Assembly: GCA_021815785.1 (NCBI GenBank)
Contig: JAKAZS010000013.1
Coordinates: 1 to 42,639, forward strand
Length of the DNA: 42,639 nucleotides
Reading direction: 5' to 3'
Origin: a bacterium
Lineage (GTDB): Bacteria > Cyanobacteriota > Vampirovibrionia > Obscuribacterales > JAKAZS01
Part shown: in pieces, positions 6,001 to 38,709 of the stretch
Numbering within the stretch: the stretch's first letter is position 1
Layout: each line of letters begins with the position of its first letter
Made by a program: the position numbers and the translations under genes
The notes under the pieces: generated by a model
Told to the model about the DNA's origin: nothing
What the model saw: the letters and a program-made list of their open reading frames with translations, nothing else
The model's database searches: none

Positions 6001-9000
6001 AAGTAGACGTAAAATTATTAAGCTCCAAAGTCACATTAGCTGGAATATCTTCAGCTGTTAAATTGGATAGGTTAACTTTAAAATCATTTATTATAATATT
6101 CCCTCCATCAGCTACACCACTGCCATTAACCGATAATGTTCCGCCAATGACGCCAGATCCTTGTAAACTTATAATATTGCTGGTAACTGAGCTTTGGGTT
6201 AAATCTAAGCTAGTCAGATTAACAGTTGATAAAGTATTAAAGTTGTCGCTACCACCAAGAATAATGGATGAAGAAGTATTGCCATTAAACAACACATTGT
6301 AAGTATTAGTTGTTATGGTATTGGTAGGTGAACTAGCTGAAATGCTGTTAGCGCCAAAATAAGTCAGACCGCCATTATTGTTGGTGACGGTAACATTAGC
6401 TGGACTAGTGGTATTGGTGCCTGAAGTTGGAATTGCTCCTATTGCAACAATGATAGCGTTAGCGCCACTGGGTGCTCCTCCATCAGTGGCCGATAAAGTA
6501 ACGTTAGATCCAAAGCTAATTATGCCAGTTGTCGTATTGGTATTGTCTAAGGTAATAGTTCCACCTTGATTGGTTAAAGTAGAACCATTGCCAACAACTA
6601 TATTACCGCCATTGGTAGTAAATATCATATTGCCACTGCCATTAGTTATATCGCTAGAGACTACCTGAGCAATGGTTATTCCGTTAGCTGCCGAAAAGCT
6701 AAGGCCTGACCCAGCAGAAATATTCCCAGCTGTTGTATTTGTAATAATTATTCCATTTGTTGTAACGTCAAAACTTCCGCCAACAGTCGAGGCATTAATA
6801 GTCAAAGTATTTGTGTTAGAAATATCAACAGAACCAGTTGTAGTAATAATTACCGAACCAGAGCCCATGTAAAATGGAGTTGTGCTATTACCCAAATCAC
6901 CGCTGCCAGCATTATAAGTTAAATTAGTTGTCACATTTGTACTACTGGCATCGCTTAGAGCTCCAGTACCAGCAGTATTTACAGTTAAATAAGCAGCAGT
7001 TACATTAGTTCCGCCAGAAAATACAACATTACCAGAGGCAGCTGTTAATGAAACATTATTGCCCGCAATAACCCCAATAGAAGTTGTTGGTAAACCAGTC
7101 ACAGTCGTTGTTGTTAAATTAATACCATTAACCGTGCTTAAATCACCTTCTGCATATAATAAATTTAAAATTGCGCTACTGGAATTATTTACAAAAGAAG
7201 CGGAACCATTACTATTAACGTATAAATTAGTTACGTTTGTTTCTAGAGGGCTGCTAGACGATGTACCAATTTGCCCAGGATTAGCATTTAATTCAAGACT
7301 TAAAGCATTAATAGAGCTAGCCGTACTGGTTTGGGTAATGGTACCACCATTAGTAGTTATTAAATCAATATAGCCAGTAGCAGTTAGATTACCGCCAAGT
7401 AGAATATTACTCCCAGAGGCAGAATTAGCATCGAATATTATATTGCCAGAAGCTGTTATATTAGCAGCTGTATCAATGGTGCTTAAGCTATCAAAAGTCA
7501 AATTATTAATCCCGGTTAGAAGAGGAATTGTAACAGTACTACTACTGGTATCGTTGATATAAATACTAGGACTGGTTCCAGTTAAATCAAAGTTAAAAGC
7601 AGTTGCATTAGTCTGTAAATCAGACGAACCTGTTCCCAAGCTAGTGCCAGTAAAAGTGAATGATAAAGTATTAGCGGTTAACACGTCACTTGCCAATGCG
7701 CTGACAATAGTTGCACTTGAATTAGCAACTGAGTCAATTATTTGAATAGTTGAAGTGGTCCCACTGGCCGCAACAATACCATTAACAGTGATTCCAGTTA
7801 AAGCGTCACTGTTTAGATACAAAGTACCATTGCTGCCAACGGTTGAAGCATTAAGAATCATATTTGTTGTACCCGAATAGCTATCATTAATAAAAGCGGA
7901 TCCAGATGTTGAACCTGTATTAACGCTTAAAGCCTGAGTATCAACAGCTAAAGTAGAAGTCGAACTTACCCCAATAAAATTGCCGCCAGTGGTTATTTGA
8001 ACTGTGCCAGCCTGGATGTTTGGAATGCCACCACCTGTATTATCAGTAATTGTTCCACCGCTATTATTTATACTAATGGTTCCAGTTAGATCACTGCCAG
8101 TTGTTATTATTCCATTGTCAACAATGCCACTAGAACTATTTTGTAATGAAAATGTCTGACCAGAGCCTACAGTTACGTTATTTAAGTTTAAACTTGCTCC
8201 AGTACCTAAATTATTTACTACATAGGCACTCGAACTAGTACTTATGGTAAGACTACCAGTAATAGTTGAAAGTGAACCGCCAGACGAACCAATAGAACCA
8301 GTTCCTCCATTTAAGGTTAAATTACCGGCTTCAATTTTTGTGCCACTAGATTCAGTAATTCCATTACCGGCTGATATGGTCATATTAGTTACGGTTGAAT
8401 GATTGCCAATTTCGATTATAGAGCCATTAAAATTAACAGCTGTATTTAGAGCCGAATAGGTAAAACTGCCAGAAGACTGATTAGCAAGGACAAATAGCTC
8501 AGCTATTGTGTTTGTTGTACCAGAAAAGCTGTTAGTTACATAGTTAGGTAAATTAATTCCAGTACTTGTCAAACTAACAGTTTGAGCATCTATTTTTAAA
8601 GGGTTTGAACTAGAACCTAAAGCACTTGACGAAGTCAGATTAAGATTGCCAGAAGTATATGTAACACCACTAGCTGTATTATCAGTTATTCCAGCAACCT
8701 GAATATCAAGCGAACCACTTGTATTGCTGGCAGTGGAAATCAAATTAGTAGAACTACCGTTGATGACCAGCTGACCTCCATCAGTTATAGTTATGTTTTG
8801 AGGCGAATTAATATTACCATTAACAATAACGCTAGAACTTTCAATTGAACCAGTACCACTAATGACCGGTGAAATTGATCCAGAAGTAATACTTCCATTT
8901 TGGGCAAAAACAACGCTTGAAGCAATTAAATTAGATGTGTATAAGCCAATATTGCCACCTCCACCACTGCCGCCGGTTGTATTAATTTCACCTACATTTA

Positions 9001-10750
9001 TCCCAGTACCACCACTGTTATTATTAGTTATTATTTCCACATTCCCGTTAGTAGCCGTAGAACTTCCTGAAAAACCACCAGTTTGAACGATGTAATTAGA
9101 GCCAAGATTAACTTCGCCCGATCCATTAGTTCCAGCTAAAGCTACTAAAGTCACGCTACCGCCGTTAGCACTACCAGTAACACCTTGGGTATTAATTATA
9201 GCCGATCCACTTGTTAAACTATTATTTGTACTCAAATCAATAACACCGCCACCATAAGCATTGCTTCCGCCAAAAGTTATCGTGGCTCCGGTAGCGCCAC
9301 TGCCATTAGCTAAAGTACCGTTAAGACTTGATGAGCTTGTGCCAGTTATAGCTATATTAGCAGAACCTAGACCAGCTACCATCACAATATTATTGCCAGG
9401 GTTACTAATGCTTACACTGGCCGAGGCTGGAATTGAGATATTGCCTCCAGCTAAAATAGATAAAGCTTCTCCAGCTGTTATGGAACCAGCTAAACTAATA
9501 CTGCCAGAACTTGCAAAAGTCGGATCGCCATTAATATATTCATTACCCAAAACCATATTAGAACCAGATGTTAACAAATGAGCACTATCGCTATTAATAT
9601 TGATAGTGCCGGTTATATTATTGACAAATCCATCAATATAACCGTTTTTATCGTTAACATTAAATTCATGGCTAAAATAATTACCATTGGCTAAATTAAT
9701 ACCATCTGAATTGCTTGAAGTTAAATCATTAAAATTAACACTGCCATTTGGTGCTTCGATAACGCCATTAAAACTTTGGGTCAAATTTAAGTTATTATCC
9801 GTAGAAAAATTAACGCTGCCTAATCCAGCTTCAATTGTACCAGCGTTAAATATAGACGAGCTAGCTATATTTATACCGCTGCCACCATAAATTCCACCAT
9901 TATTGTAAATTGCACTACTGGCAGAAACAGTCAAAATATTAGTTGAACTTATTTGCCCACTACTTTCATTAACCAGATTAGTAACCTGAATACTGCCATT
10001 ACCATTAAAGACAATATCGCCGTAGTTAACCAAATTGTGAGCGATTTGTAAATTGCCACTATTATCTACCAGGGTAACATTGGCTGGTAATTCCATACTA
10101 TTGATGTTACGACTCAGCAAAACTGCATTAAAACTGCCACCACTAGCCTGGCCAAGAGCATTTAACATAAGTGTTTGATTGTTGTCAACCAAAATCTCTT
10201 TAAGAGCTATTGCTTCAGCTGGTGTTAAATTGGCATTATTATTTACTTCAAAATTATGTCCGTTTAAATCAAGACTTACACTATGACTTAAATTATTTAC
10301 CGTCACATTACGGGTAATAGAGCTCAAATCAAGACTTGAATTAATTAGACTGTGCAAAATACTGCTTATGTTTTCTTGGGGATTAACAATATTTGGATTA
10401 ATAAAAGCCAAAGAATTCTGAGCATCATGGATAAGTGTTGATTGACTACTTCCTTCATGGGTTGAATTATGCTGCATTGATCCTGAATTGGCGGTATTGG
10501 CTACTAATTCACTGGCTAAAGCTAAGTTTATATTTTGAGCACAGATTAGATTTATAGCAAAAAATAAAACCAGGCTTAATTTTAGGCCTGGTTTACGAGA
10601 ATTTTGTGAATTAAATTGACACAACTGCTTTATATTTACGGAATTAGTGATATCGGAAATTATTAATGACATTAATGTTGCCGAATTTGTTATTGACAAA
10701 TCTTTAAGCGGCAATTGTTTAGCTAATTTAGTTTTAGAACTCAACATCAT
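1..10750 (-). CDS. Giant repetitive secreted/surface protein, 3' end beyond window
   Basis: The minus strand stays open from ATG 10750-10748 to the left edge, about 3,580 codons, and I saw no in-frame stop where I translated it. GGGGAG lies 7 nt before the ATG. Residues 1-52 are a polar leader. Residues 53-79 are a basic then hydrophobic signal-peptide core (KPGLKLSLVLFFA...) ending near ALA-S. The rest is rich in Ser, Thr, Asn, Gly, Ala and Leu, with countless short runs such as GSLTLN and SGNIN typical of right-handed beta-helix or haemagglutinin-like adhesins. The first 400 residues after the signal peptide contain Asn-rich strands, but I could not identify a definite TPS/FHA secretion domain. 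Internal duplications are listed separately. Its likely place is the cell surface or outside the cell, with a role in adhesion or matrix; this is inferred from composition only. No C-terminal anchor is visible because the gene continues leftward. Confidence 0.85.
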   Translation of the reverse strand, partial: MMLSSKTKLAKQLPLKDLSITNSATLMSLIISDITNSVNIKQLCQFNSQNSRKPGLKLSLVLFFAINLICAQNINLALASELVANTANSGSMQHNSTHEGSSQSTLIHDAQNSLAFINPNIVNPQENISSILHSLINSSLDLSSITRNVTVNNLSHSVSLDLNGHNFEVNNNANLTPAEAIALKEILVDNNQTLMLNALGQASGGSFNAVLLSRNINSMELPANVTLVDNSGNLQIAHNLVNYGDIVFNGNGSIQVTNLVNESSGQISSTNILTVSASSAIYNNGGIYGGSGINIASSSIFNAGTIEAGLGSVNFSTDNNLNLTQSFNGVIEAPNGSVNFNDLTSSNSDGINLANGNYFSHEFNVNDKNGYIDGFVNNITGTININSDSAHLLTSGSNMVLGNEYINGDPTFASSGSISLAGSITAGEALSILAGGNISIPASASVSISNPGNNIVMVAGLGSANIAITGTSSSSLNGTLANGSGATGATITFGGSNAYGGGVIDLSTNNSLTSGSAIINTQGVTGSANGGSVTLVALAGTNGSGEVNLGSNYIVQTGGFSGSSTATNGNVEIITNNNSGGTGINVGEINTTGGSGGGGNIGLYTSNLIASSVVFAQNGSITSGSISPVISGTGSIESSSVIVNGNINSPQNITITDGGQLVINGSSTNLISTASNTSGSLDIQVAGITDNTASGVTYTSGNLNLTSSSALGSSSNPLKIDAQTVSLTSTGINLPNYVTNSFSGTTNTIAELFVLANQSSGSFTYSALNTAVNFNGSIIEIGNHSTVTNMTISAGNGITESSGTKIEAGNLTLNGGTGSIGSSGGSLSTITGSLTISTSSSAYVVNNLGTGASLNLNNVTVGSGQTFSLQNSSSGIVDNGIITTGSDLTGTISINNSGGTITDNTGGGIPNIQAGTVQITTGGNFIGVSSTSTLAVDTQALSVNTGSTSGSAFINDSYSGTTNMILNASTVGSNGTLYLNSDALTGITVNGIVAASGTTSTIQIIDSVANSSATIVSALASDVLTANTLSFTFTGTSLGTGSSDLQTNATAFNFDLTGTSPSIYINDTSSSTVTIPLLTGINNLTFDSLSTIDTAANITASGNIIFDANSASGSNILLGGNLTATGYIDLITTNGGTITQTSTASSINALSLELNANPGQIGTSSSSPLETNVTNLYVNSNGSASFVNNSSSAILNLLYAEGDLSTVNGINLTTTTVTGLPTTSIGVIAGNNVSLTAASGNVVFSGGTNVTAAYLTVNTAGTGALSDASSTNVTTNLTYNAGSGDLGNSTTPFYMGSGSVIITTTGSVDISNTNTLTINASTVGGSFDVTTNGIIITNTTAGNISAGSGLSFSAANGITIAQVVSSDITNGSGNMIFTTNGGNIVVGNGSTLTNQGGTITLDNTNTTTGIISFGSNVTLSATDGGAPSGANAIIVAIGAIPTSGTNTTSPANVTVTNNNGGLTYFGANSISASSPTNTITTNTYNVLFNGNTSSSIILGGSDNFNTLSTVNLTSLDLTQSSVTSNIISLQGSGVIGGTLSVNGSGVADGGNIIINDFKVNLSNLTAEDIPANVTLELNNFTSTSPVNVNLTAASTTQQVVINGTQEFITTGGGSFGLENINSNLGSTTPILAIGSTGTITSDGSLTLNVQGNSQIDGAITAVNQVTLAATAGSNGSIAIGANVSATSTTGSVSLTTDGSGSITQTAGTISANTLDIAGGSGNIGLTSAYIQASISNLSLDITGNAFVNNTSTIALSLNTSAVNSLTLTTAGSLAINGNITGTTDLNITSAGNLDIASNLSTTSSTATITLSTTQIASTIAQATSTTPYVITGNTVSLVTNGGNIGSSTQSIYVTASSLDLTTTSTNGSAFINNTGSGTLSLDSLTVGDGITLISTGSINTTTTSVVSDGNISFTSAGSIVLDASISSTGTIGSITLATTGAGTITETGGISLNAYTVNLNTAGGEIGSVSQSIVLFDVSNVSFDTLNNSATTGNVYLNSTISTTINLNASSFGNGTATNPYSFILTSSGTINIAGIVSSGANNNFSSIDLTGTGSSQITNASSGSLESDSILLNTSGGNIGSSGNNLNVNTSSLSFSTLNNSSTSGNAYINDSNTGSLTLNAASVGSGGTADTISLTTAGSLIVNANVSSDSTGGSINITAPGGITLASGSGAILSATSGFISLNTSGNNIGASGSTKMLLVDTPSLSLNVMGGTSPPTSTSAYVNDTDNSAVTLTAATIGSTGTLALTVGNNLVIGSAVSVGADTGTGSILLSAGGSGSSSVFSYASSSDSLTSGTISLTATNGGYIGTSSSATFTVDTSNLNVATTNGNGSVYITDSIATGPVNLNSVSLATTTNGEFYLTTAASDGINVNGAVNVAGTNSIITLTDTSSSSTAGLTSVSTYQITAGTVNLNTNNNNIGSISLGKSVTTDTSNLNINLGTASTASVNISNTNTGLTTLNSISSIANLTFLTQGNLDIASINGTGNLSLSANGSVVIDGSITTASTGTIGIGTFVASSSITQTSNSYVLTAGNVTLSAESNIGSTGTNGQSINVDTGSLTVISINGSAYIASLGTPTLTLSSINSSNVNQTFDLSTLGNLVVGGSITAQTLNFTSGGNFVFGSNTSINGVTSLSISVSGSNAITQSDSAATINALNVTLNSVSGNIGSNSQSINFIGNSLTANSTNGSVYVNDESSLAINTGTSAGGVLYITAQGSLSTGNNISAGTNLILEAQSGSTSTLTAGNNLTAGASLSLSAIAGLSAGSLTAQNGGINLSTNSGPLTINASATISAKTIVLNEISTSSGSIAIGSGVTINSNDSGAAPGTNAIVFAIGSIPTTGTNTIVPTNVVVNSSNSGNAYFGSNSITASSPTNTINANGLNVIFNGSSSTTPITLGGSDIINAISQVTISSLDLTNSTVTSTLLSLQSSGAVGGTLIVTGGVATGGNLIFNASTDIMNSLTAEVIPANVSVQFNGFTASTPVDVNLTSASTTKVVTISGTENFTTSGGGSVADMTVNSSLSSTSPIFVIGSTGTLTSDGSLNLSVAGSSQISGVVTANSNLTIASTTGTNGNIAIAANLTSTNGNIDLSANGSGNITQIAGLISANTANLTSSTGNIGASGNDLSINAINLSANTSGNVFISDTNASVNLNASTGNSFNVSANVSGATLSVNGALSATSISLTSDSNLTILSALSATNVDLSTSTNGNITIANVISGSSGSDATSVTLNANGSGNIVNDVNSNNPKIQALTLTLVSGTGNIGGIVGTSTTNIMADASALSANTSGNVYITDSNASGVSMNASSGNSFNFLVSSASSTLSLNGALNANSVSLSSTSNLTINGVLEASNIDLSSTSNGNITLANVLSGVSGANATSVTISANGSGSIVNAINSNNPQILATTLTLTSGTGNIGSLAGATSTNIKTNASIVSANTSGTGSNGNVYISDNNANSVNLNASTGNSFNLNVTGASSNLTLAQTLTATTVNLATAGGSLTTNATLAASNLNLTTAGSGALTINSQIGLSTSTDNLNAGGYLTTGTNGVIMANTLNLTSTTGEIGFGVGGLSPLTTQAKSITFDAPYSVG
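364..1350 (-). repeat. Tandem repeat units of about 149-154 codons in the giant gene
   Basis: Landmarks recur at fixed in-frame offsets. GATTATTGCTATT occurs at 568 and 1015 (447 bp, 149 codons), and TAAAGCTATT occurs at 364 and 826 (462 bp, 154 codons). At least two full units (about 455-900 and 905-1350) and part of a third to the left are visible. They look like stacked modules of a fibrous protein. Confidence 0.7.
1458..2390 (-). repeat. Long internal repeat, copy A (partner at 5643-6581)
   Basis: About 930 bp are recognisably similar to 5643-6581, in the same frame. Matching landmarks are displaced by exactly 4,191 bp (1,397 codons): ACATTAGCTGGAATA occurs at 1842 and 6033, and GTATTGGT at 2220 and 6411. 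Divergence is considerable, so the duplication is old and has been kept under coding constraint. Confidence 0.75.
5643..6581 (-). repeat. Long internal repeat, copy B (partner at 1458-2390)
   Basis: This is the second copy of the roughly 310-residue block of the giant protein. The match to copy A is collinear over most of its length, with a small indel of about 6 bp near its left end. Similarity fades right of about 6581. Confidence 0.75.
10559..10594 (-). terminator. Terminator-like hairpin plus U-tract inside the giant gene
   Basis: Read on the minus strand, AAACCAGGC (10594-10586) pairs perfectly with GCCTGGTTT (10575-10567) across a 10-nt A/T loop. It is followed at once by UAUUUUUU. This is the form of an intrinsic terminator, but it lies in codons 53-64 of the giant gene, the signal-peptide core. 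Ribosomes translating the leader would prevent folding, so it could act as a translation-dependent attenuator. It could also arise by chance from Leu/Phe codons; the perfect 9-bp stem argues somewhat against that. Confidence 0.5.
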
Positions 10751-26158: not shown

Positions 26159-27562
26159 ATGTTAGCAAATAGTGCAGAATTATTTAAATTTACAAGATTA
26201 ACCTTAATTTGGCTTACGATAATCTTTGGCAGTGTTTGGGGGGCTTGTTTTGTTGTTGGTGTCTTAATACCAACTTTACTCTTACATTTAGGTGAAAATG
26301 AAATATTTGCGTTACTTGCGCAAATTTGTCAGTATTTAACACCAGTTATTGCTATCTTAGTTTTTATCCCGATTAATGCCATGTTTATGGTTTTAGTTGA
26401 ACGCCGCGGACTAGCCTTATTCACCGTGCGCATGGGACCAAATCGAGTTGGTCCAGATGGACTTTTACAAACCGCTGCTGATGCTGTTAAATTGTTATTT
26501 AAAGAAGATATTATTCCTACCGGTGCTGATGCCTGGTTATTTACACTAGCCCCAATTATCTTTTTTGCACCATCCATTTTTGGTTCAATACCTTTATTAG
26601 CAGCTATAACTGGTAACAATGACTTATTTGCCATTACTAATTTACCCACCGGAATCTTTTTTATCATTGCGGCGTCATCTGTGCCAGTTGTTGGAATAGT
26701 TATGGGTGGCTGGGCCAGTAATAATAAATATTCATTAGTTGGTGGTCTTAGAAGTGCAGCTCAGGCTATAAGTTATGAAATCCCCTTGGTGTTATCCTTA
26801 GTTACAATTTGTTATTTAAATCAAAGTTTAAATGTTGTAGAAATTGCTAGCCGGCAAACCGGTGGTTTTCTTAACTGGAATATATTTGGCGGTGGAGCTT
26901 TAAATGGCTTGGATAAATATTTTAATGCATTAATTAATGGCTCGTCAAATGCTAACGATATTTTACAGGCATATTATCCAAGTAATCAATGGATTCTAAC
27001 CGTAATTGCCATAGCTGGACTTGTTGTTTCAACAATAATTGCTTTTTTCATGTATATTACAGCTGCCTGTGCAGAAGTAAACCGAATCCCATTTGATCTT
27101 CCTGAAGCCGAAAGTGAATTGGTAAGCGGTTATAACACTGAATATAGTGGAATTAAATTTGCCATATTTTTTCTGGCTGAATTTACGAACTTATTTATTG
27201 TTTCCAGTATCGCTACCATAATGTTTTTAGGTGCTGGGAATAACCCAATTCCTCAGTTTTTAATTGATTACCTATTTAAAAATGTAACTTTCATCCCACA
27301 AACTATTAATGCAATTACGCAAGCTTTGTCGCCGTTGATTAATCAAATTCATTTAATTAATCCCATTACCTTCTGGTCGGTAGTCTGGATGATTGTTAAA
27401 ACCTATAGCCTGGTTTTCTTTGCCGTATTAGTGCGAGGTACATTACCTCGATTTAAAATTGATCAGTTAATGGATTTTGGTTGGAAAAGACTAATTCCCT
27501 TATCCCTACTTGTTTTTTTCATAGTTATTTTCGCCAAAGGAGTAATCAATACCAATGTCTAA
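26159..27562 (+). CDS. nuoH: NADH-quinone oxidoreductase subunit H (NdhA), enlarged
   Basis: NuoH forms the membrane side of the quinone channel and links redox to proton pumping. The core motifs are clear: MFMVLVERRGLALFTVRMGP, NRVGPDGLLQTAADAVKLLF, then EVNRIPFDLPEAESELVSGY and YSGIKFAIFFLAEF. At 467 residues it is about 100 longer than usual. The extra length lies at the N-terminus, in a loop near residues 230-280 (about GGALNGLDKYFNALING), and in another near 360-410 (about PIPQFLIDYLFKNVTFIPQ). AAAGGA lies upstream of the ATG. The end overlaps nuoI by 8 bp. Confidence 0.96.
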   Translation: MLANSAELFKFTRLTLIWLTIIFGSVWGACFVVGVLIPTLLLHLGENEIFALLAQICQYLTPVIAILVFIPINAMFMVLVERRGLALFTVRMGPNRVGPDGLLQTAADAVKLLFKEDIIPTGADAWLFTLAPIIFFAPSIFGSIPLLAAITGNNDLFAITNLPTGIFFIIAASSVPVVGIVMGGWASNNKYSLVGGLRSAAQAISYEIPLVLSLVTICYLNQSLNVVEIASRQTGGFLNWNIFGGGALNGLDKYFNALINGSSNANDILQAYYPSNQWILTVIAIAGLVVSTIIAFFMYITAACAEVNRIPFDLPEAESELVSGYNTEYSGIKFAIFFLAEFTNLFIVSSIATIMFLGAGNNPIPQFLIDYLFKNVTFIPQTINAITQALSPLINQIHLINPITFWSVVWMIVKTYSLVFFAVLVRGTLPRFKIDQLMDFGWKRLIPLSLLVFFIVIFAKGVINTNV

Positions 27563-28352
27563 CCTAATTACTAGAGCTAAAGATAGTATATATCAAGTTC
27601 TACGTGGTTTAAAGACTGTTGCGGTTCACAGTTTAAGAATTCCTACCACTAAAGAATACCCCGATACAATGCCACCATTGCCACCGCATTTTCGCGGCAG
27701 GCTAGCTTTAAACGTCAACCCAGAAACCAATGAGCATTTATGTATTTCGTGCCGTCAGTGTGAACGGGTTTGTCCGGATAAATGTATTGAAATAACTGCT
27801 CATAAAAGCCCTGAAACCAATAAACTTGAATTGATTGATTTTAAAATTGATCACGGTCTATGTATGTTTTGTGGCTTGTGCACAGAAGTTTGTCCAACCG
27901 ACTGTATTATAAATACTAATGATTTTGAAATGGCTGATTATAGTAGAGAAGCATTAGTTTATGACATTCGTAAACTTACACTTACTCAAGGCGAATCCAG
28001 CCATTATTTTGCAGCCAAAGAAATTGCCTTACCCAAGCCTAAACCTACTAAACCTGCTGTAACAGTTACGCCAGCAACAAGTACAGTTAAACCAGCCGAA
28101 GCTAAAACTGAAAGTAAGCCAGCCGAAGTTAAAACTGAAAGTAAACCAGAAGAAGCTAAAACTGAAAGTAAGCCAGCCGAAGTTAAAACTGAAAGTAAAC
28201 CAGCCGAAGCTAAAACTGAAAGTAAACCAGAAGAAGCTAAAACTGAAAGTAAGCCAGAAGAAGCTAAAACTGAAAGTAAGCCAGAAGAAGTTAAAACTGA
28301 GGCAAAACTAGAAGAAACTGATATTAAGTCAACTGATAACGATATAAAATAG
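27555..28352 (+). CDS. nuoI: NADH-quinone oxidoreductase subunit I (NdhI) with a repetitive charged tail
   Basis: NuoI carries two [4Fe-4S] clusters (N6a/N6b) that pass electrons to N2. The ligands are all present: CISCRQCERVCP (C63, C66, C69, C73) and CMFCGLCTEVCP (C103, C106, C109, C113). The normal domain ends near residue 165. It is followed by a Pro/Thr linker and then eight 9-residue units of the type KPEEAKTES (179-250). This Lys/Glu-rich tail is not part of the family fold. The start overlaps nuoH by 8 bp; GGAG lies about 12 nt upstream. Confidence 0.96.
   Translation: MSNLITRAKDSIYQVLRGLKTVAVHSLRIPTTKEYPDTMPPLPPHFRGRLALNVNPETNEHLCISCRQCERVCPDKCIEITAHKSPETNKLELIDFKIDHGLCMFCGLCTEVCPTDCIINTNDFEMADYSREALVYDIRKLTLTQGESSHYFAAKEIALPKPKPTKPAVTVTPATSTVKPAEAKTESKPAEVKTESKPEEAKTESKPAEVKTESKPAEAKTESKPEEAKTESKPEEAKTESKPEEVKTEAKLEETDIKSTDNDIK
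28089..28304 (+). repeat. Eight tandem 27-bp units in the 3' end of nuoI
   Basis: Each 27-bp unit encodes KP(A/E)E(A/V)KTES. Copies differ at only a few bases, mainly GCC/GAA and GCT/GTT switches. A decayed ninth unit follows. Frame is conserved, and copy number is likely to vary between strains. Confidence 0.9.
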
Positions 28353-30660: not shown

Positions 30661-31119
30661 ATGAAAACCAGTTCACAATATCAAATTAGTTTTGCTAATG
30701 CTTATGCTGATTTGTATCTTGACAAAGAAAATGGTGAATTTGCCCTGGATTTAAGAAGACAGGAAATCACTATATATCTTAATAGTAATCAATATGGAGC
30801 CTTAGTTTTATTAATTCAGGAATCCAATGAGAATGAAGAATTGATGGACTACATATTGTGGAAAAAAGATCCCCTACAATGTGATGATAGTCAATTGTTT
30901 GAAGTTTGTGGTCCGGACCATGTAGTTTGCCTAGCTTGTACCCCTAATTGTGAACGAATTAAATTAACTTTTGACTTAGGTGTAGCCATTGATCTAGCCT
31001 TTGCTGATTTTCAGGGTCTTAACGAATTAATTTTAGAGGCTCAAGCTGATTTAGAATGGCGGCGCGAACTCTTACGCTGGAATAGTGGTGAAAGTGGTCA
31101 GGATTTTCAGGCTACATAA
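30661..31119 (+). CDS. Hypothetical acidic protein with a cysteine cluster
   Basis: This 152-residue protein is not recognised. It is soluble, acidic and has no signal peptide. A central cysteine group, VCGPDHVVCLACTPNC (C83, C90, C93, C97, with C74 nearby), could bind a metal. The C-terminus is a helix with ADLEWRRELLRW. AAGGA stands about 9 nt before the ATG, 21 bp after hemB, so the two are probably co-transcribed. The pairing might hint at a haem- or iron-related role, but that is only proximity. Confidence 0.8.
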   Translation: MKTSSQYQISFANAYADLYLDKENGEFALDLRRQEITIYLNSNQYGALVLLIQESNENEELMDYILWKKDPLQCDDSQLFEVCGPDHVVCLACTPNCERIKLTFDLGVAIDLAFADFQGLNELILEAQADLEWRRELLRWNSGESGQDFQAT

Positions 31120-31203: not shown

Positions 31204-31295
31204 AGGATCGCTGGATACGGCCATTGGTAGTGAACCTGGTCAGGAGGGAAACCTAGCAGCCATAAGCTTTCTTAATGGGGTGTATACAGCGGTCT
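31204..31295 (+). ncRNA. ffs: Signal recognition particle RNA (4.5S type)
   Basis: SRP RNA binds Ffh and FtsY to target membrane proteins co-translationally. The invariant domain IV is present: CCUGGUCAGG, an AGG/CCU stem closed by a GAAA tetraloop (31245-31254 region), then AGCAGCC. The usual GGAA loop is thus GAAA, another GNRA loop. The ends pair, CGCUGGAUAC with GUAUACAGCG (one mismatch), as expected for a roughly 92-nt small bacterial SRP RNA. No clear terminator follows before the gene at 31331. Confidence 0.93.
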
Positions 31296-31330
31296 AAACT
31301 TATTACTAATATTATTAATCTTTTCTATTT

Positions 31331-31615
31331 ATGAAATCTAAACCAGTTAAAAGTTCGACAGCTAAATCAACAAAATATAGTCAAGTTAATGACAAGACTT
31401 TAATTGGCCAAATTCTTGTTGAACTTGGCTATATAACTATATACCAACTTGATGAAGCTTTGTTTATTCAAAAACAAGACAAAGAAAATAATAAAGAACC
31501 TAAAACCCTTGGACAAATTTTTCTTGAACTTGGTTATTGTGGACCAAACCAACTTATCCGAGCTATTCAAGTTCAGGCTGAATACCGAAAGCTTAAGACA
31601 AATTTACAAGAGTAA
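31331..31615 (+). CDS. Stand-alone MshEN/GspE-N-like small protein
   Basis: The 94 residues consist of a basic N-terminus (1-21) and two copies of a motif typical of the MshEN / type II secretion ATPase N-terminal domain, G-x-x-L-x-E-L-G-Y-I-x-x-x-x-L-x-x-A-L-x-x-Q. They lie at 24-47 (GQILVELGYI...LDEAL) and 60-82 (GQIFLELGY...LIRAI). In ATPases such as MshE these tandem motifs bind c-di-GMP. Here no ATPase follows, and the leading Arg of the motif is not kept (Thr precedes LIG/LG). Binding of c-di-GMP is therefore possible but unproven. It lies 98 bp before the pseudo-kinase, probably in one transcript. Confidence 0.75.
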   Translation: MKSKPVKSSTAKSTKYSQVNDKTLIGQILVELGYITIYQLDEALFIQKQDKENNKEPKTLGQIFLELGYCGPNQLIRAIQVQAEYRKLKTNLQE

Positions 31616-31713
31616 CCTAATTAAATTATACTTTTATAGCCTAAATTTTAATTTAAGGTTAAACTTCTTATAGAGAATTAAAGTTAATTTAGTTTGTAAA
31701 AAGTGATTTCATC

Positions 31714-34026
31714 TTGAGTACTGGTGTTAAAACATTCCTATCTTACCTAACCGTGATTATCATCATGTTGGTTGGAATTTTAGGTGGTTCTTGGTTTTTA
31801 TTAAGTCAAGGTGAAAAATTTAATGCCAGCCAAAAAATTCAAATTGCTAAAGATGATTTATTTAAATTACTCATCCAGGTTGAAAATAATAATGCCAATT
31901 TAGCTAATCTAATTGCTAAAGACAGCAATGTTATTAACGGTCTTGATGATTCAACTAAATTAATAACTTTATTACAGGGTTATTTAAATAAATTCAATAA
32001 TACTGGCTGTGTAACGATAGTTAACCGAGATGGCCAGGTTTTAGCTAGCACCGATACCCCTTCTAAATTTAATTATTCCATTAAAAAAGATAGTGAGACA
32101 ATCCGATTAGTGCTAACCCGCGAAAAAGATTATCATGGTTATACCAGTTTTGGTCCAACTGGAGTAATATTTTTAAGTTCAGCAGTACCGATAATGGAAG
32201 ATAATACCTTAACCGGAGCAATTATTGTAAGTCAGCCAATCAATAATGAATTTTTAGCAAGTTGCTCAACTGCGCTTACTTTTATGAAAAATAATCCGGT
32301 TAGTAATATTGACTTAGTTGTATATTCAACCAAAAGTAAAAAAATTGTTGCTTCAACCACTGATTTATTAACAGCCAGGCTAAATTTATTACAAAACCTT
32401 TCCAACAACACGATAAATTTTTCAACTTTACTAAACTCGAAAAATCTCAACTTAATGCCTAATAGCCCCGGTATCTTTGGTTTTGAATCAGACAGCCGTT
32501 GGTGGTTTCTTCAGCCTTTGGATAGTGGTAATGTCCAGAATCCGTGTGGTTATTTATTTTTTACGACCAAACTAAATTCTATAAATGATACTTTACTGGC
32601 TATTTTAATTGCGAGCCTAGCCTTTTCTGCTATAGCCTGTTTAATTAGTCTTATATCAGCTGTGGTAATTAGCAATTCAATTTCAGCTCCCTTAAAAAAA
32701 CTTATAAATCATGCTCAAAAATTAAGTAAATATCAAGATGATGTGCCACCGCTTAAAGGTTTAAGTGGCCAATGGCTTGTTTTAGCTGAAAATATGGATA
32801 CTAGCGTTAGCAGTTTAAGAACGAGTATTAATAACATAAAGAATCAGGTTTTACCAAAAGAAGAAACTCATCACAGTGAAGATACTAAACAGGTTAAATC
32901 TTTAAGTGATCAATTAGCTAATCTTAACAAACAGTTTTCGGTGCAAACTAAACAGTTATCGGAAATAACTAATTTAAATGATATTGCTAATCAACGTGTA
33001 AATAATTTACAGCAAACTATTGATACGATAATCCATCAAAGTTTTGATGGTATGGTGGTAACGGATAATCGTCAAAGCATAATTCTAGCTAACCAAATTT
33101 TTCTTCAATGGTTAGGACTTAAGGAAAATGAAATTTTAGGTAAATCAGTCTATGATTTTTTAAAAGTCAGTAACAAAAAAAATCCTCAAAATTCGCTAAA
33201 TTCAGATGATGAATATATAGTTTATAATTTTGAAAATCAAGAATACCGCGAAGTCATAGGTATTAAAATAACTTTGCCGGTTTTAAATAACCAAAGTACT
33301 GAATTAATGATTTTACTGGATAAAACTACTCAAGTTGAACCATCGAGGCTTAAGGGTGAATTTACTTCTATTTTAACTAATTCCATTAGGCAAAGTTTAC
33401 TCGAAAGCAAGGACAGCCTTGATAATTTGCTTAAAATAATCAAAGCCAATATCCCTCCAGTTATTGGGCAAAATCTTTTACAGCTAAATGAAAACATTAT
33501 GAATATTTTAGCCTTGGTCGACAGCCTGATTATGGCTTATGGAGGAATGGTACCAACCAAAGTTGAACCTCGTGAATCAATCGCAGTTACCCGATTAATG
33601 TCGGAATGTCTTGAAGAAACGGCTAATCTTGCCCGACAGCGTCAGTTATCGCTAGATCTTAAATCACCGCTAGGGCTTCCAGCCTTAAATGGTAACAGTA
33701 GTAATATTAAAGGGATTATTATTCCCCTGTTAGAAAAAATTATTAATATGACTAGTGCCGGTGGCAGAGTTCGCATTGAAAATGTTGTAAAAGGTCAAGA
33801 GCTTAAAATCTCAATCATAAGTTCTGGTCCAGCTTTAAACCCTGAAGAAACCTTAGAATTTTTTGCTGGCTTTATTCCGGAAAAACATCATGAAGAAACT
33901 TATGGGGAAAGACTTTCCCTGTATATGGCTAAGACTAATGCTGAGCGAATGGGTATTAAAATAATGATAGATTCTGGCGCTAACCGTGGCACTACTATTA
34001 TGATTATTTTGCCTGTAAAAAATTAA
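31714..34026 (+). CDS. Membrane sensor with a degenerate histidine-kinase core
   Basis: The 770 residues read: TM1 8-30; extracytoplasmic Cache-like sensor about 31-290; TM2 292-322; HAMP about 323-375; coiled coil about 395-440; PAS about 437-540 (SFDGMVVTDNRQSIILANQ); then a dimerisation and HATPase-like region to the end. Catalytic boxes are changed. The H-box, normally SHELRTPL, reads TNSIRQSL with N556 for His. The N-box Asn positions are P671 and K675. The G1 box DxGPG reads SSGPA (703-707). The G2 box reads GERLSL (731-736). The fold signals GGRVRIE and GTTIMIILP remain, so this is a pseudo-kinase, not a decayed gene. TTG 31714 is the only usual start codon after the in-frame stop at 31690. 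Its stop overlaps the convergent gene by 4 bp. Confidence 0.9.
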   Translation: MSTGVKTFLSYLTVIIIMLVGILGGSWFLLSQGEKFNASQKIQIAKDDLFKLLIQVENNNANLANLIAKDSNVINGLDDSTKLITLLQGYLNKFNNTGCVTIVNRDGQVLASTDTPSKFNYSIKKDSETIRLVLTREKDYHGYTSFGPTGVIFLSSAVPIMEDNTLTGAIIVSQPINNEFLASCSTALTFMKNNPVSNIDLVVYSTKSKKIVASTTDLLTARLNLLQNLSNNTINFSTLLNSKNLNLMPNSPGIFGFESDSRWWFLQPLDSGNVQNPCGYLFFTTKLNSINDTLLAILIASLAFSAIACLISLISAVVISNSISAPLKKLINHAQKLSKYQDDVPPLKGLSGQWLVLAENMDTSVSSLRTSINNIKNQVLPKEETHHSEDTKQVKSLSDQLANLNKQFSVQTKQLSEITNLNDIANQRVNNLQQTIDTIIHQSFDGMVVTDNRQSIILANQIFLQWLGLKENEILGKSVYDFLKVSNKKNPQNSLNSDDEYIVYNFENQEYREVIGIKITLPVLNNQSTELMILLDKTTQVEPSRLKGEFTSILTNSIRQSLLESKDSLDNLLKIIKANIPPVIGQNLLQLNENIMNILALVDSLIMAYGGMVPTKVEPRESIAVTRLMSECLEETANLARQRQLSLDLKSPLGLPALNGNSSNIKGIIIPLLEKIINMTSAGGRVRIENVVKGQELKISIISSGPALNPEETLEFFAGFIPEKHHEETYGERLSLYMAKTNAERMGIKIMIDSGANRGTTIMIILPVKN

Positions 34027-35261
34027 TTATCAGTAATAACCCAGCCAAATAACTTTATTGCTTCATTAGCATTAATATTATTTTCTAAAGAATAATATAA
34101 AATAATTTTAGCCTGTTCAGGGTCTAAAAGTGTTAGACATAGTAGGTTATTTAAAAATTCAGCCTGGTTTAAGATAAATTCACTGATAATATTTAAGTTT
34201 TTTAGTGCATTGTTAAAACTTAATTTGTTATCAAGCGCATACTTAAAAACTTCATCACTTTGTTTTTGCGTAATAATATTACAAGCAATTAAAAACTGGG
34301 CAAATTTAAGGCTAGTTGATTCATTATTTTCACTATTTAATATTTCATCAATAACTTCTTCAAGACTCAATTGCGTTATAGTTAGCTTTTTTAAAATCAT
34401 TACGGCGTGATCTAGGTATATAGAACCCTCTTCAATTAATTGCAAAAGATATTTAGCATATTCGAGAATTTTCGGGGTAAGATAACCATTTTCTACTAAG
34501 ACATCCTGAATTTGTTGATCATTTTGAATAATGATTTCTTCCGCTGAGGCTAAATCAGTAATGTTAATAATATTAGATCTTAACAATAACTCTTCTAATT
34601 TTTTGATATCAATTATGGTATCATAATCAATATTGTAGAGCATAAGACATTCACGAAAAGATAAATTATTATTACGCATAGCTCGAATAATCTGGACTCC
34701 AGTGTGTCGATCTATTTGCTGACTACGAATTAGTTTTTGAATTATTAATAGTTTATTTTTTAAATCCTGGTTTAAATATCCTAAATCAGTTAACACAATT
34801 CCTAAAGGCAAACCTGATTCGTTACTAGCTTTAAGCCCTTCACGTAATTCACTTTTGGTAATAAGATTACATTCAATTGCTAATTCACCAATTTTATTAG
34901 TTTGATAGGCTTCAGTACCTACACTAATCCAGCCTAATTTTTTGATCGCTGTATCTAAGTCGAGTCCTTCACTAATCGATAGCTTTAAAGCCTTGATTCC
35001 ATTATCAAGACTAAGTATTCTATCTCTAATATATGATTGCACCGTCAAAGCATCTCTTAAACGATCATCGGTCAAATGTCCTTGTAAACATAAAACCTTA
35101 CCAACTGGTAATCGCATCTGATTAGCAAAAGTTAAAACGCCTTCCCATTTTTTTTCATTAATAACACCACTTAAAATTAATAGCTCACCAATGCGAATTG
35201 AAGTTTCATTTTTTGGATTAGGAGGTTTATGAGGATCGCTTGGAGAAAGACTATTATTCAT
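34023..35261 (-). CDS. Protein of four roughly 97-residue MshEN-like repeats
   Basis: The 412 residues divide into four similar blocks, about 23-112, 123-211, 220-306 and 319-409, spaced 97-100 residues apart. Each begins with an IGELLI/LEELLL-type helix, then a turn with N/G-I-I, a second half with a GYL-type turn, a helix ending near LIRS, and a closing section EAI-x-x-L-GW (for example AIKKLGW at 105-111, AIKLFGW at 401-407). The first half of each block resembles the MshEN motif pair. There is no ATPase, membrane segment or signal peptide, so it is probably a cytoplasmic scaffold or ligand-binding array. ATG 35261 overlaps the stop of the upstream gene (ATGA), implying translational coupling. 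Confidence 0.85.
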   Translation of the reverse strand: MNNSLSPSDPHKPPNPKNETSIRIGELLILSGVINEKKWEGVLTFANQMRLPVGKVLCLQGHLTDDRLRDALTVQSYIRDRILSLDNGIKALKLSISEGLDLDTAIKKLGWISVGTEAYQTNKIGELAIECNLITKSELREGLKASNESGLPLGIVLTDLGYLNQDLKNKLLIIQKLIRSQQIDRHTGVQIIRAMRNNNLSFRECLMLYNIDYDTIIDIKKLEELLLRSNIINITDLASAEEIIIQNDQQIQDVLVENGYLTPKILEYAKYLLQLIEEGSIYLDHAVMILKKLTITQLSLEEVIDEILNSENNESTSLKFAQFLIACNIITQKQSDEVFKYALDNKLSFNNALKNLNIISEFILNQAEFLNNLLCLTLLDPEQAKIILYYSLENNINANEAIKLFGWVITDN

Positions 35262-36898
35262 TCATTTTTAATCCGACCTGGTGACATTAAAATCGGGAAA
35301 TTACCTTGATAGGATAATTTCATAGCGTTATACGCAGAATTAACCAATTCTTCCAGGCTAATACCATCATGGGGCAAAGAAGCTATGCCAAAAGCCGCTT
35401 TGATATTCTTTTTATCAATACCTGGTAAAATTGGTGTAGCACATAGAGTCTGCCAAATTCGATTGGTTACAAAAGCCGCCTGGGATATTTTAGAATTAGG
35501 CATAATAATCATATATTCACCAGGCCGCACATGACAAACAGTATCCAGTGGACGTTTTACCAGTTCAATCCGTTTAAGCATAATATTTTCACCTTGAGGT
35601 GGTAAAGCTTCATATTTATTAAGGGATTTATCTTGATTAACTAATATACTAAATATAGTTACTGCCATAGGATAGCCATAATATTTAAAGCGATAATATT
35701 CGTACTCTAAAAAATATAAACCTGGACCAAAATACAGCATTTTGGTCTCAGCATTTTGCATTGATTTGACAACGTCTTTAACATAATCAACACCTTGGGG
35801 GATAAATTCCAGGGGTTTTTTCTCTGGTGGTAAAATCCGAAATTCAATTAAGCCGGAATTAAGAAAATTATATAAAGTCGGAATCCATTGATCACTTGCT
35901 AAACTAGTGTCTCGTAATAATTCCTGTAAAGTAATTGAACTATGAACACTTAAATGTTGAAACAGTTGTTTTTGAATATTAAAATCAATGGGTACACCTT
36001 TGACCAACATGGTTTTAAGTTCGCTTTCATTGATTTTTGTTTTAGCTAATGAAATTACGGTATCATAGGCTAAACCAGACTGTTCCAGTCGATGTTTCTG
36101 TTCAGCTAAAGCTAATCCTTCAGCTATTAACGAAATTAAATCTTTGTCAACCGTGCGGTGGCTAGATTTATCATCTGTTAAAAATATATAATCTCCATTT
36201 GCCCAGGTAAAAACGTCTTTAATCGCACTTGACCCGATTTCACCCATTAGATAAGCATGATAAGGGATACCATTTTCAAAGAAAATTTCGGATTTGTTGT
36301 CGCTGGACAAAATTTCTAGTTTCCCCGATAATTTAGCATTTGCCACTGACTGTATCAATGACTGCATAGGCATTTGACTTAAATTTCCTTCAAGTACTGA
36401 ACTAGTCGATAGTAATTTGTCTTCAAGGCTTAAGTTTTCATTTAACTGGCGTTGTGGTGATGGTGTTGGAAAAGTTGAACTGACTGGTTTTTCGACTGCA
36501 AAATTATTGTTACTTTCATTACCTAAGGCTATCGATCCAGGAAAACTTGGCGCTGGTGGATTATTAGCAACAATTTCTTGTTGGATTGATTCAATTTTAT
36601 AAAGACAGTCATTAATAATATTGACATCACTAGTTTCGTTTTTAAGTAATGGAGTTTTATTCTGATTGACAACCATCCACACCGTCCAAAGTGGATTTGC
36701 TTGTCCTTTTTGAATAAAGCAGTGAATCATATAATTTTTATTCACCAGATTATCCGACCAAGCCAGTTCAATAACTGCTCCAGGATTTCCTCTTGATTGT
36801 TTGAGGACAAACATTAATTCAGCCATTTGTGGTCGACCCACACGGCTAGGTAAGGTTATTAATGTTTCATGGTTAGGTTTATTTTGTCCAAATATCAT
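35258..36898 (-). CDS. PATAN (DUF4388) protein with a degenerate GGDEF-like C-terminus
   Basis: The 546 residues have an N-terminal region (1-110) of unknown fold and a Pro/Ser linker. A PATAN/DUF4388-type domain covers about 167-265 (LEGNLSQMPMQSLIQSVANA, KLSGKLEI, IFFENGIPYHA, GDYIFL). A helical winged-helix-like part follows to about 355. The C-terminus, 405-530, follows the GGDEF order: YPMAVTIFSI, then HVRPGEYMIIMPNS where GGDEF should be (RPGEY, 458-462), then KAAFGIASLPHDGISLEELV and AYNAMKLSYQG. The catalytic GG and the metal-binding Asp are absent, so synthesis of c-di-GMP is unlikely. PATAN proteins in cyanobacteria act in surface motility signalling. It is coupled to the repeat protein downstream by a 4-bp overlap. 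Confidence 0.88.
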   Translation of the reverse strand: MIFGQNKPNHETLITLPSRVGRPQMAELMFVLKQSRGNPGAVIELAWSDNLVNKNYMIHCFIQKGQANPLWTVWMVVNQNKTPLLKNETSDVNIINDCLYKIESIQQEIVANNPPAPSFPGSIALGNESNNNFAVEKPVSSTFPTPSPQRQLNENLSLEDKLLSTSSVLEGNLSQMPMQSLIQSVANAKLSGKLEILSSDNKSEIFFENGIPYHAYLMGEIGSSAIKDVFTWANGDYIFLTDDKSSHRTVDKDLISLIAEGLALAEQKHRLEQSGLAYDTVISLAKTKINESELKTMLVKGVPIDFNIQKQLFQHLSVHSSITLQELLRDTSLASDQWIPTLYNFLNSGLIEFRILPPEKKPLEFIPQGVDYVKDVVKSMQNAETKMLYFGPGLYFLEYEYYRFKYYGYPMAVTIFSILVNQDKSLNKYEALPPQGENIMLKRIELVKRPLDTVCHVRPGEYMIIMPNSKISQAAFVTNRIWQTLCATPILPGIDKKNIKAAFGIASLPHDGISLEELVNSAYNAMKLSYQGNFPILMSPGRIKNE

Positions 36899-37044
36899 AA
36901 ATTTTTATTCTTTTTTAGGCTAGAAAATTTTAACTATTTATTTGTTTTAATGAATTATTGTATATAATTATTAGGTTATCTATTTTCAAGCATATCAAAG
37001 ATTTCTAGCTTTGTTAAGCCTAAACTAATAATCATTAAAAAATA

Positions 37045-37935
37045 ATGGTATTATCCCAAGAAAACTCTTCAAATATTAACGCTTCAGCAAATTTGTCAGC
37101 TGAGGAATTAATAGCGCAAAATCTTATCAAACCAAAATCTGAATCATTTATAAACTTTCTTAAACGTTCGTTATTTGAATTATCTAATTTAAAATTTGCC
37201 TTAACTTCATTCGTCGTTAATAGTTTACGTAGACGTTATCGACGGTCAGTGCTTGGCTTTGCCTGGAGTTTACTTAACCCATTAACAACCATGGTTGTCA
37301 TGACTACGGTGTTTTCTTTACTTTTCCATAATAACCCCAAAGAGTTTGGTATATATATATTTACCGGCATTTTACCCTGGTCATTTTTGCTCGATTCCAT
37401 AACTGGAGGAAGTTTATCATTAGTAGATGCCGAAGGCTTTCTAAAAAAAGTTTACATTCCTAAACTATTTTTCCCTTTAGTTATTGTTTCAACTGAGGCC
37501 GTTAATTTTATCTTTAGTTTAAGTAGTTTAATGTTTCTCGCTTTAGCCTTAGGCATGCATTTAAGCTTTAGTTTATTAACTTTGCCCTTAGCCATAGCCA
37601 TTCTTTATGCCTTTAACCTTGGCTCTGCCTTGTTTTTAGCTATAAGCACCGTTTATTTTCGCGACCTTACCCATATAACTAGACAATTGCTCCAAGCGTT
37701 CTTTTATTTAGTCCCCATTTGTTATCCATTAAATGTTGTGCCACCTAAATATTTATTTTTATTTAAATTAAATCCATTTTATTATTTTATTAATTTATTT
37801 CGCATCATTATTTGTGATGGTCATTTTCCTCAAGCCAAAGACTGGTTAATTCCTAGTGCTATTGCGGTTATTGTATTGTTCATGGGTTTTTCCCTGTTAA
37901 AGAAAACCGAAAGTGATATAATTTTTAGACTTTAA
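37045..37935 (+). CDS. wzm: ABC-2 type polysaccharide export permease (Wzm-like)
   Basis: With the next gene it forms an exporter that moves lipid-linked O-antigen, capsule or teichoic-type polymers across the inner membrane. The 296 residues have a cytoplasmic N-terminus of about 65 residues ending in the basic RRRYRRSVLGFAWSLLNP. Six hydrophobic helices follow, with the family segments GILPWSFLLDSITGG, FLKKVYIPKLFFPL, STVYFRDLTHITRQ and LNPFYYFINLFRI. The gene lies divergent from the PATAN gene with 146 bp between starts. The ATPase gene follows after 18 bp. Confidence 0.92.
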   Translation: MVLSQENSSNINASANLSAEELIAQNLIKPKSESFINFLKRSLFELSNLKFALTSFVVNSLRRRYRRSVLGFAWSLLNPLTTMVVMTTVFSLLFHNNPKEFGIYIFTGILPWSFLLDSITGGSLSLVDAEGFLKKVYIPKLFFPLVIVSTEAVNFIFSLSSLMFLALALGMHLSFSLLTLPLAIAILYAFNLGSALFLAISTVYFRDLTHITRQLLQAFFYLVPICYPLNVVPPKYLFLFKLNPFYYFINLFRIIICDGHFPQAKDWLIPSAIAVIVLFMGFSLLKKTESDIIFRL

Positions 37936-37953
37936 AGGCATAGGTTAAATTTA

Positions 37954-38709
37954 ATGATAAGCGATAAAGTATATATTGAAATTGAAAATGCCTGGCTCAA
38001 GTTTCGCATCTATAAAAATCGATCTCCAGCCTTAAAAGAGGCCATACTTTCAAGATTTAAGCCCAAACCAGATATTGCCGAAATCACTGAATTTGATGCT
38101 TTGAAAAATATCAATTTAAGTTTGCGTGGTGGCGACAGAGTTGGTTTGGTTGGCTTAAATGGAGCTGGTAAGTCTACTTTACTTAAAATGATTGTGGGAA
38201 TTTACCCGCCTAAATATGGCAACGTTCATGTGCGGGGTAAATTAACCCCTTTAATTGAACTGGGCACAGGTTTTGATGCTGAATTAAGTGGTCGCGAAAA
38301 TATTTTTCTTAATGGGGCTTTACTTGGCCGATCTTACAAACAAATGAAGTCACTGGAACAAGAAATTATTGATTTTTCTGAATTAGGTGAATTTATTGAC
38401 TTACCCATTAAATATTATTCTTCAGGGATGCATGGACGTCTAGCCTTTTCAATCGGAACAATTGTTGATCCAGAAATTTTAATTGTCGATGAAATTTTTG
38501 CCACAGGTGACGCTCATTTTGTTAACAAGGCAACCAATCGGATGAAAGCTTTATTTACTAATTCACAAATTGTAATGTTGGTATCACATGATACCCAAAA
38601 AATTGTTGATTTATGCAATCGGGTTTTAGTGTTACATAAAGGTGAAGTTATTAATGATGGTAACCCCAAAGAAATGGTTGATTTTTATTTAAAAGAAATT
38701 GTTGCCTAA
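37954..38709 (+). CDS. wzt: ABC transporter ATP-binding protein for polysaccharide export (Wzt-like, short form)
   Basis: This is the ATPase partner of the permease at 37045. The 251 residues include Walker A GLNGAGKS (67-74), the signature YSSGM (155-159), Walker B ILIVDE (175-180) and the switch histidine in VSHD (H212). FDALKNINLSLRGG and GKLTPLIELGTGFDAELSGR are typical of the O-antigen/teichoic group. It ends right after the nucleotide-binding domain. The C-terminal carbohydrate-binding domain that reads the polymer end in longer Wzt proteins is absent, so chain-end recognition is not expected here. Confidence 0.94.
   Translation: MISDKVYIEIENAWLKFRIYKNRSPALKEAILSRFKPKPDIAEITEFDALKNINLSLRGGDRVGLVGLNGAGKSTLLKMIVGIYPPKYGNVHVRGKLTPLIELGTGFDAELSGRENIFLNGALLGRSYKQMKSLEQEIIDFSELGEFIDLPIKYYSSGMHGRLAFSIGTIVDPEILIVDEIFATGDAHFVNKATNRMKALFTNSQIVMLVSHDTQKIVDLCNRVLVLHKGEVINDGNPKEMVDFYLKEIVA

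Follow-up and report, generated by a model that had tools for sequence, protein, structure and literature searches.

PelD of Pseudomonas aeruginosa and Bacillus cereus belongs to an exopolysaccharide locus and is a catalytically dead GGDEF protein with an intact RxxD motif and a third Arg; its binding of c-di-GMP controls polysaccharide post-translationally, and in the B. cereus protein R363, D366 and R395 are needed both for binding and for biofilm (PMC7112168). The I-site of PleD comprises R359, D362 and R390 (PMC7288161). MshEN domains have been described in MshE, PilB/PilF and NfrB, the last of which ties the domain to exopolysaccharide (PMC5013675; PMC8669469), and Wang et al. reported that altering Arg9, Asp12 or Gln32 of MshEN changed its affinity by no more than fivefold (PMC5013675). 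The Synechocystis PATAN-REC regulators PixE, PixG and LsiR carry a PATAN domain that likely binds partner proteins (PMC7690835; PMC12288463), and DivL, a kinase that has been repurposed, can act through contact with other proteins (PMC4211667).

Here we compare with these systems a group of neighbouring genes in a genome (2.9 Mb, 94% complete) of the Obscuribacterales, cyanobacteria that are uncultured and do not photosynthesise. The window, the whole stretch of 42,639 nucleotides that was analysed, is one complete contig. Its sequence bears out the positions that a first-pass annotation had given for genes A, B, C and D and for the genes of a Wzm- and a Wzt-type protein, together with the claim that these are tightly packed: B and C converge in a 4-nt overlap of their stops (34023-34026), and D and C overlap in an ATGA (35258-35261), both read directly in the sequence. 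The guess that the DNA came from Melainabacteria was also sound, since the order is Obscuribacterales and gene A has its named near relatives in MAGs of Candidatus Melainabacteria and Obscuribacterales, including Ca. Obscuribacter phosphatis. Elsewhere the window holds an open-ended reading frame for a highly repetitive, Ser/Thr/Gly/Asn-rich protein of 3583 aa (2-10750, minus strand), whose start resembles a filamentous haemagglutinin by eye only, and a gene for a NuoI-like ferredoxin protein with a long C-terminal tail of KPEEAKTES-type repeats (27555-28352, plus strand).

Two conserved gene pairs that adjoin in one genus

The comparison covered 60 relatives: 2 congeners, 50 genomes of another Obscuribacterales family (here f2) and about 7 from other families of the class. 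Gene A (31331-31615, plus strand) encodes a stand-alone single MshEN domain of 94 aa, and gene B (31714-34026, plus strand) starts with TTG and encodes a membrane Cache-PAS pseudo-histidine kinase of 770 aa. Of the 48 genomes with A, 45 have B on the same contig no more than 1.5 kb away, and in the remaining 3 the two genes are on broken contigs; both are on the same strand in 41/41 fetched loci, with a median gap of 140 nt. The small SRP RNA gene ffs (31204-31299, plus strand; Rfam RF00169, 59 bits against a gathering threshold of 40) is a conserved upstream neighbour of A, and its core was recovered there in 35 of 43 loci, a lower bound given that a simple pattern was used and that some contigs end at this point. 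It is usually preceded by hemB and by a gene for a 152-aa protein (30661-31119, plus strand in the window), which is about 67-78% identical across f2 genomes, matches nothing over cut-off in Pfam and nothing in NCBIfam, and stands as a conserved protein without a family. Homologues of A without B are present in other families of the class; the loci L141-L144, from other Vampirovibrionia families, hold short stand-alone MshEN proteins (68-72 aa) in varying gene contexts, again without B.

Gene C (34023-35261, minus strand) encodes a four-unit MshEN-like alpha-helical array of 412 aa, and gene D (35258-36898, minus strand) a protein in which an N-terminal alpha/beta domain is followed by a PATAN/DUF4388 domain and a degenerate GGDEF domain. 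In all 25 genomes that carry a best match to D, C adjoins it, and at the measured loci the two genes share a strand (23/23), overlap in 12 cases and lie within 3 nt of each other in 14; judged from this layout, D and C are translationally coupled in many genomes. Orthologs of this pair were recovered from no more than about half of the order's genomes (25-26 of about 53).

The first-pass annotation had read all four genes as one pathway controlling Wzm/Wzt, a reading favoured by their contiguity in the window and in genome G001 (71-78% identity to the B, C and D of the window) and by contig ends in G002 that are consistent with the same order. However, A-B and D-C lie on different contigs in 22/22 f2 genomes that carry both, including assemblies of 6 and 8 contigs, so that their contiguity in the window reflects an arrangement at the level of the genus, and a four-gene unit was rejected on f2 synteny. 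Nor does A-B have a glycan neighbour at any of 46 loci, and control of polysaccharide by A-B was rejected as unsupported. A-B and C-D form two pairs, each conserved independently of the other, which adjoin only in this genus; the contiguity of all four genes does not extend outside the genus, and a single pathway through all of them is very improbable.

Gene B, a kinase-like sensor, and its neighbour A

Gene B matches Pfam HATPase_c over cut-off, PAS (PAS_9) and, weakly, dCache, with transmembrane segments at residues 12-30 and 296-314. Its kinase core had been called dead, and the alignments agree. In none of 46 aligned sequences is the phospho-accepting His present, its place being taken by Asp, Asn, Glu, Gln and other residues (Asn556 in the window, 33379-33381, plus strand). 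Within the degenerate ATPase domain (33703-34020, plus strand; Pfam and alignments), Lys, Arg or His stands in place of the N-box Asn and Ser in place of the G1 Asp, and the glycines of G2 have been lost, as seen both in the ortholog alignment and in pairwise comparison with solved kinases. By these residues, every ortholog of B is a pseudokinase, and the conservation of the catalytic loss argues for a function free of phosphotransfer rather than for decay.

RetS, which acts by protein contact, is a sequence match of B. With DivL and RetS, B has in common the character of a kinase-like sensor that can act through protein contact; it differs from them in being without the His and the ATP-site residues, in being always paired with an MshEN protein and in having no gene for a partner kinase or regulator beside it. 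B, a membrane sensor unable to phosphorylate, would, like DivL or RetS, act through contact with proteins, and we infer that it may contact A.

Because the Pfam MshEN model (PF05157) gives no match in A, in C or anywhere in this genome, it was dropped as a detector, and MshEN domains were sought with NCBIfam NF053729 (cut-off 38) and with family profiles. A lies over the NCBIfam cut-off (46.2 bits), and in a PDB profile search its family profile matches the solved MshEN domains of MshE and PilF/PilB. A lone MshEN-like protein, as first annotated, is thereby confirmed, but its motif is near intact rather than degenerate. The window's A retains both motif-terminal Gln residues along with the Gly and Leu contact positions, and across the family (44 aligned sequences) the Gly, Leu and both Gln positions are largely retained. 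The first Arg is replaced by Leu in motif I and by Thr/Pro in motif II, so that the window's A does not match the published relaxed MshEN motif, and the two motifs are separated by 11 residues instead of the MshEN spacer of 5. A and C have the sequence motif and the NCBIfam and PDB matches in common with MshE, PilB/PilF and NfrB, although A differs from these in standing alone, without an ATPase or enzyme. A, a small and near-intact MshEN protein, probably binds c-di-GMP. A-B is a separate, order-wide pair, in which a non-enzymatic sensor goes with a likely nucleotide receptor.

A degenerate GGDEF protein with a retained I-site, and an MshEN-like array

In gene D, the assignment of a PATAN domain and a degenerate GGDEF domain by the first-pass annotation stands. 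The PATAN domain (residues 170-266; 36101-36391, minus strand) matches DUF4388 (PF14332) at 47 bits against a cut-off of 25, and the GGDEF domain falls just below its Pfam cut-off, while the AlphaFold2 model of D finds GGDEF structures by Foldseek with TMt values of 0.77-0.80. The ortholog alignment places RPGEY (residues 458-462; 35513-35527, minus strand) at the GGDEF position; this sequence is not conserved, and the position varies freely among orthologs. The cyclase residues DxD, FK, ND, GH and GD are lost from D and its homologues, and an active cyclase was ruled out on the loss of GG(D/E)EF and of the metal and substrate residues.

The loss of cyclase residues, correctly noted before and conserved across orthologs, is accompanied by a complete I-site that had been overlooked. 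R449 and D452 of the RxxD motif (RPLD, residues 449-452; 35543-35554, minus strand), together with Arg480 (35459-35461, minus strand), align with R359, D362 and R390 of PleD, and all three are invariant in 19 orthologs of D. Among the degenerate D homologues of the order, RxxD is present in 49/49 and the R390 equivalent in 48/49, and in the 158-column alignment only 8 columns reach 95% identity or more, 3 of which are the I-site residues. Since many GGDEF domains of all kinds carry RxxD and a third Arg, this retention could be partly structural; the catalytic GGDEF domains examined here keep RxxD in 9/11. The complete I-site turns what would be a generic binding module into a specific hypothesis, that D is a c-di-GMP receptor.

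As in PelD, then, a dead GGDEF fold is combined in D with an intact RxxD motif and a third Arg. D differs from PelD in carrying a PATAN domain and another N-terminal domain in place of membrane helices and a GAF domain, and in having an MshEN array as its partner; with no transmembrane segment in D and no pel context among the D-C loci inspected, it is not a PelD ortholog proper, and we would call it PelD-like in logic only. D has its PATAN domain in common with PixE, PixG and LsiR; in contrast to them, it has no receiver domain, is fused to a degenerate GGDEF domain and has glycan rather than pilus neighbours. No description of the D-C architecture was found in the literature searched. In this genome D has 11 matches, of which some consist of GGDEF alone, and relatives have up to 24 matches per genome to D-like proteins.

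C also lies over the NF053729 cut-off (59.2 bits against 38), and its family profile matches the solved domains of PilF (1e-13) and MshE (3e-7). It is built from four units of about 98 residues, with about 25 predicted helices, which agrees with its earlier description as a four-unit MshEN-like array. The AlphaFold2 model (pLDDT 78, pTM 0.40) gave no significant whole-chain match in Foldseek, the low pTM and loose inter-unit geometry making it uninformative. The motif columns show that units 1-2 (34605-35198, minus strand) are better preserved, in that the second motif keeps its Gln and is complete in most orthologs, while the first is without Gln; units 3-4 (34026-34604, minus strand) have degenerate motifs that have lost Gly/Gln, and no unit has both motifs with a terminal Gln. 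As a four-unit array with partly lost motifs, C differs from MshE, PilB and NfrB. There are 9 matches to C in this genome and up to 39 matches per genome to MshEN-like arrays in relatives, where one array lineage adjoins a superoxide dismutase and an SNF2 helicase.

The partial degeneration of these motifs raises the possibility that D-C is purely a protein-protein scaffold, in which the GGDEF fold and the MshEN array are structural, no c-di-GMP is bound and the PATAN domain binds the MshEN-like helices. The coupling of the two genes would fit this, as would the interaction of PATAN regulators with the MshEN-bearing motor PilB1 in Synechocystis (PMC12288463; PMC9090330). Yet the three I-site residues occupy some of the most conserved columns of a domain from which the cyclase site has been erased, and units 1-2 of C retain their complete second motif in most orthologs; we regard a scaffold of this kind as unlikely, though it carries some weight.

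Surface-glycan clusters and a possible read-out of c-di-GMP

Divergent from D in the window lie genes for a Wzm-type ABC-2 permease (37045-37935, plus strand; Pfam ABC2_membrane) and a Wzt-type ATPase (37954-38709, plus strand), whose best NCBIfam matches are galactan Wzm (9e-25) and galactan Wzt (8e-68), both below the equivalog cut-offs. Glycan genes were found at 22/23 f2 D-C loci, where 112/306 genes matched in a leave-one-locus-out comparison with same-locus matches excluded, against 0/46 A-B loci (579 genes) and 0/20 loci of other MshEN arrays (283 genes), in a comparison that takes its glycan families from the D-C loci, counts related and so non-independent genomes, and uses control arrays from a few synteny groups. 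The contrast recurs in a Pfam census of the nearest genes that was made without such selection. The clusters vary, and Wzm/Wzt itself occurs at only some loci: Wzt is present at 13/25 D-C loci and Wzm at 7/25, with homologues directly divergent from D in the f2 loci L076, L078 and L161. Other members include nucleotidyltransferases, family-2 and group-1 glycosyltransferases, acyltransferase-3 and MBOAT proteins, as well as GDP-mannose dehydratase-like, RmlD-like and bacterial sugar transferase proteins. D-C is found in glycan clusters as PelD is found in an exopolysaccharide locus, although these clusters are mostly of ABC-export or acyltransferase types and not pel. The link to surface polysaccharide that had been proposed for the whole set is supported for D-C and unsupported for A-B.

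Type IV pilus motors are the targets known for PATAN regulators (PMC9090330; PMC12288463), and in Myxococcus PilB signals to exopolysaccharide production (PMC5544727), so D-C might instead regulate a pilus motor, its link to glycans being secondary. However, D-C is flanked by glycan and not by pilus genes, and no MshEN-type PilB was detected in this genome, where, besides the silence of PF05157, the only two strong T2SSE ATPases (G000:C90:30691 and G000:C111:8057) are followed by TadB/TadC-like genes and look to be of the Tad/CpaF type. A PATAN-to-PilB mechanism was accordingly demoted to a rival, and we consider regulation of a pilus motor improbable.

With regard to c-di-GMP, the genus encodes active-type GGEEF cyclases and two EAL proteins per genome, and no PilZ domain was found in it. 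Absence of PilZ throughout the order was rejected, as 34/60 relatives carry one or two. In the genus, where turnover enzymes are present and PilZ is absent, receptors had no known candidate.

On balance we lean towards the reading that D-C is a c-di-GMP I-site receptor joined to an MshEN-derived scaffold, which would control the assembly or export of surface glycans. In this scheme D and C would form a co-translated pair regulating a surface-glycan cluster, which in the window would be the adjacent Wzm/Wzt exporter. D, as a dead diguanylate cyclase, would sense c-di-GMP at its retained I-site as PelD does; the resulting change would pass through the PATAN domain to C, whose helical scaffold may in turn take up more c-di-GMP or dock partner proteins, and C would relay the signal to glycan assembly or export. 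More tentatively, D-C could represent a receptor complex for c-di-GMP of a new class, in which a protein with PATAN and an I-site-only GGDEF is coupled to an MshEN-derived helical solenoid, present in many copies per Obscuribacterales genome, which might serve as the main read-out in PilZ-free lineages and gate glycan assembly and ABC export post-translationally.

The family of PATAN proteins with a dead GGDEF domain and the MshEN-like arrays are candidate receptors, with R449, D452 and R480 as the residues in question in D. If the receptor reading is true, the PelD principle would reach a new architecture and ABC-exported surface glycans. The same reading offers a hypothesis on what a large gene expansion does in an uncultured cyanobacterial sister order. 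A-B contributes a further element, a pseudokinase conserved across the order and paired with a one-domain putative nucleotide receptor.
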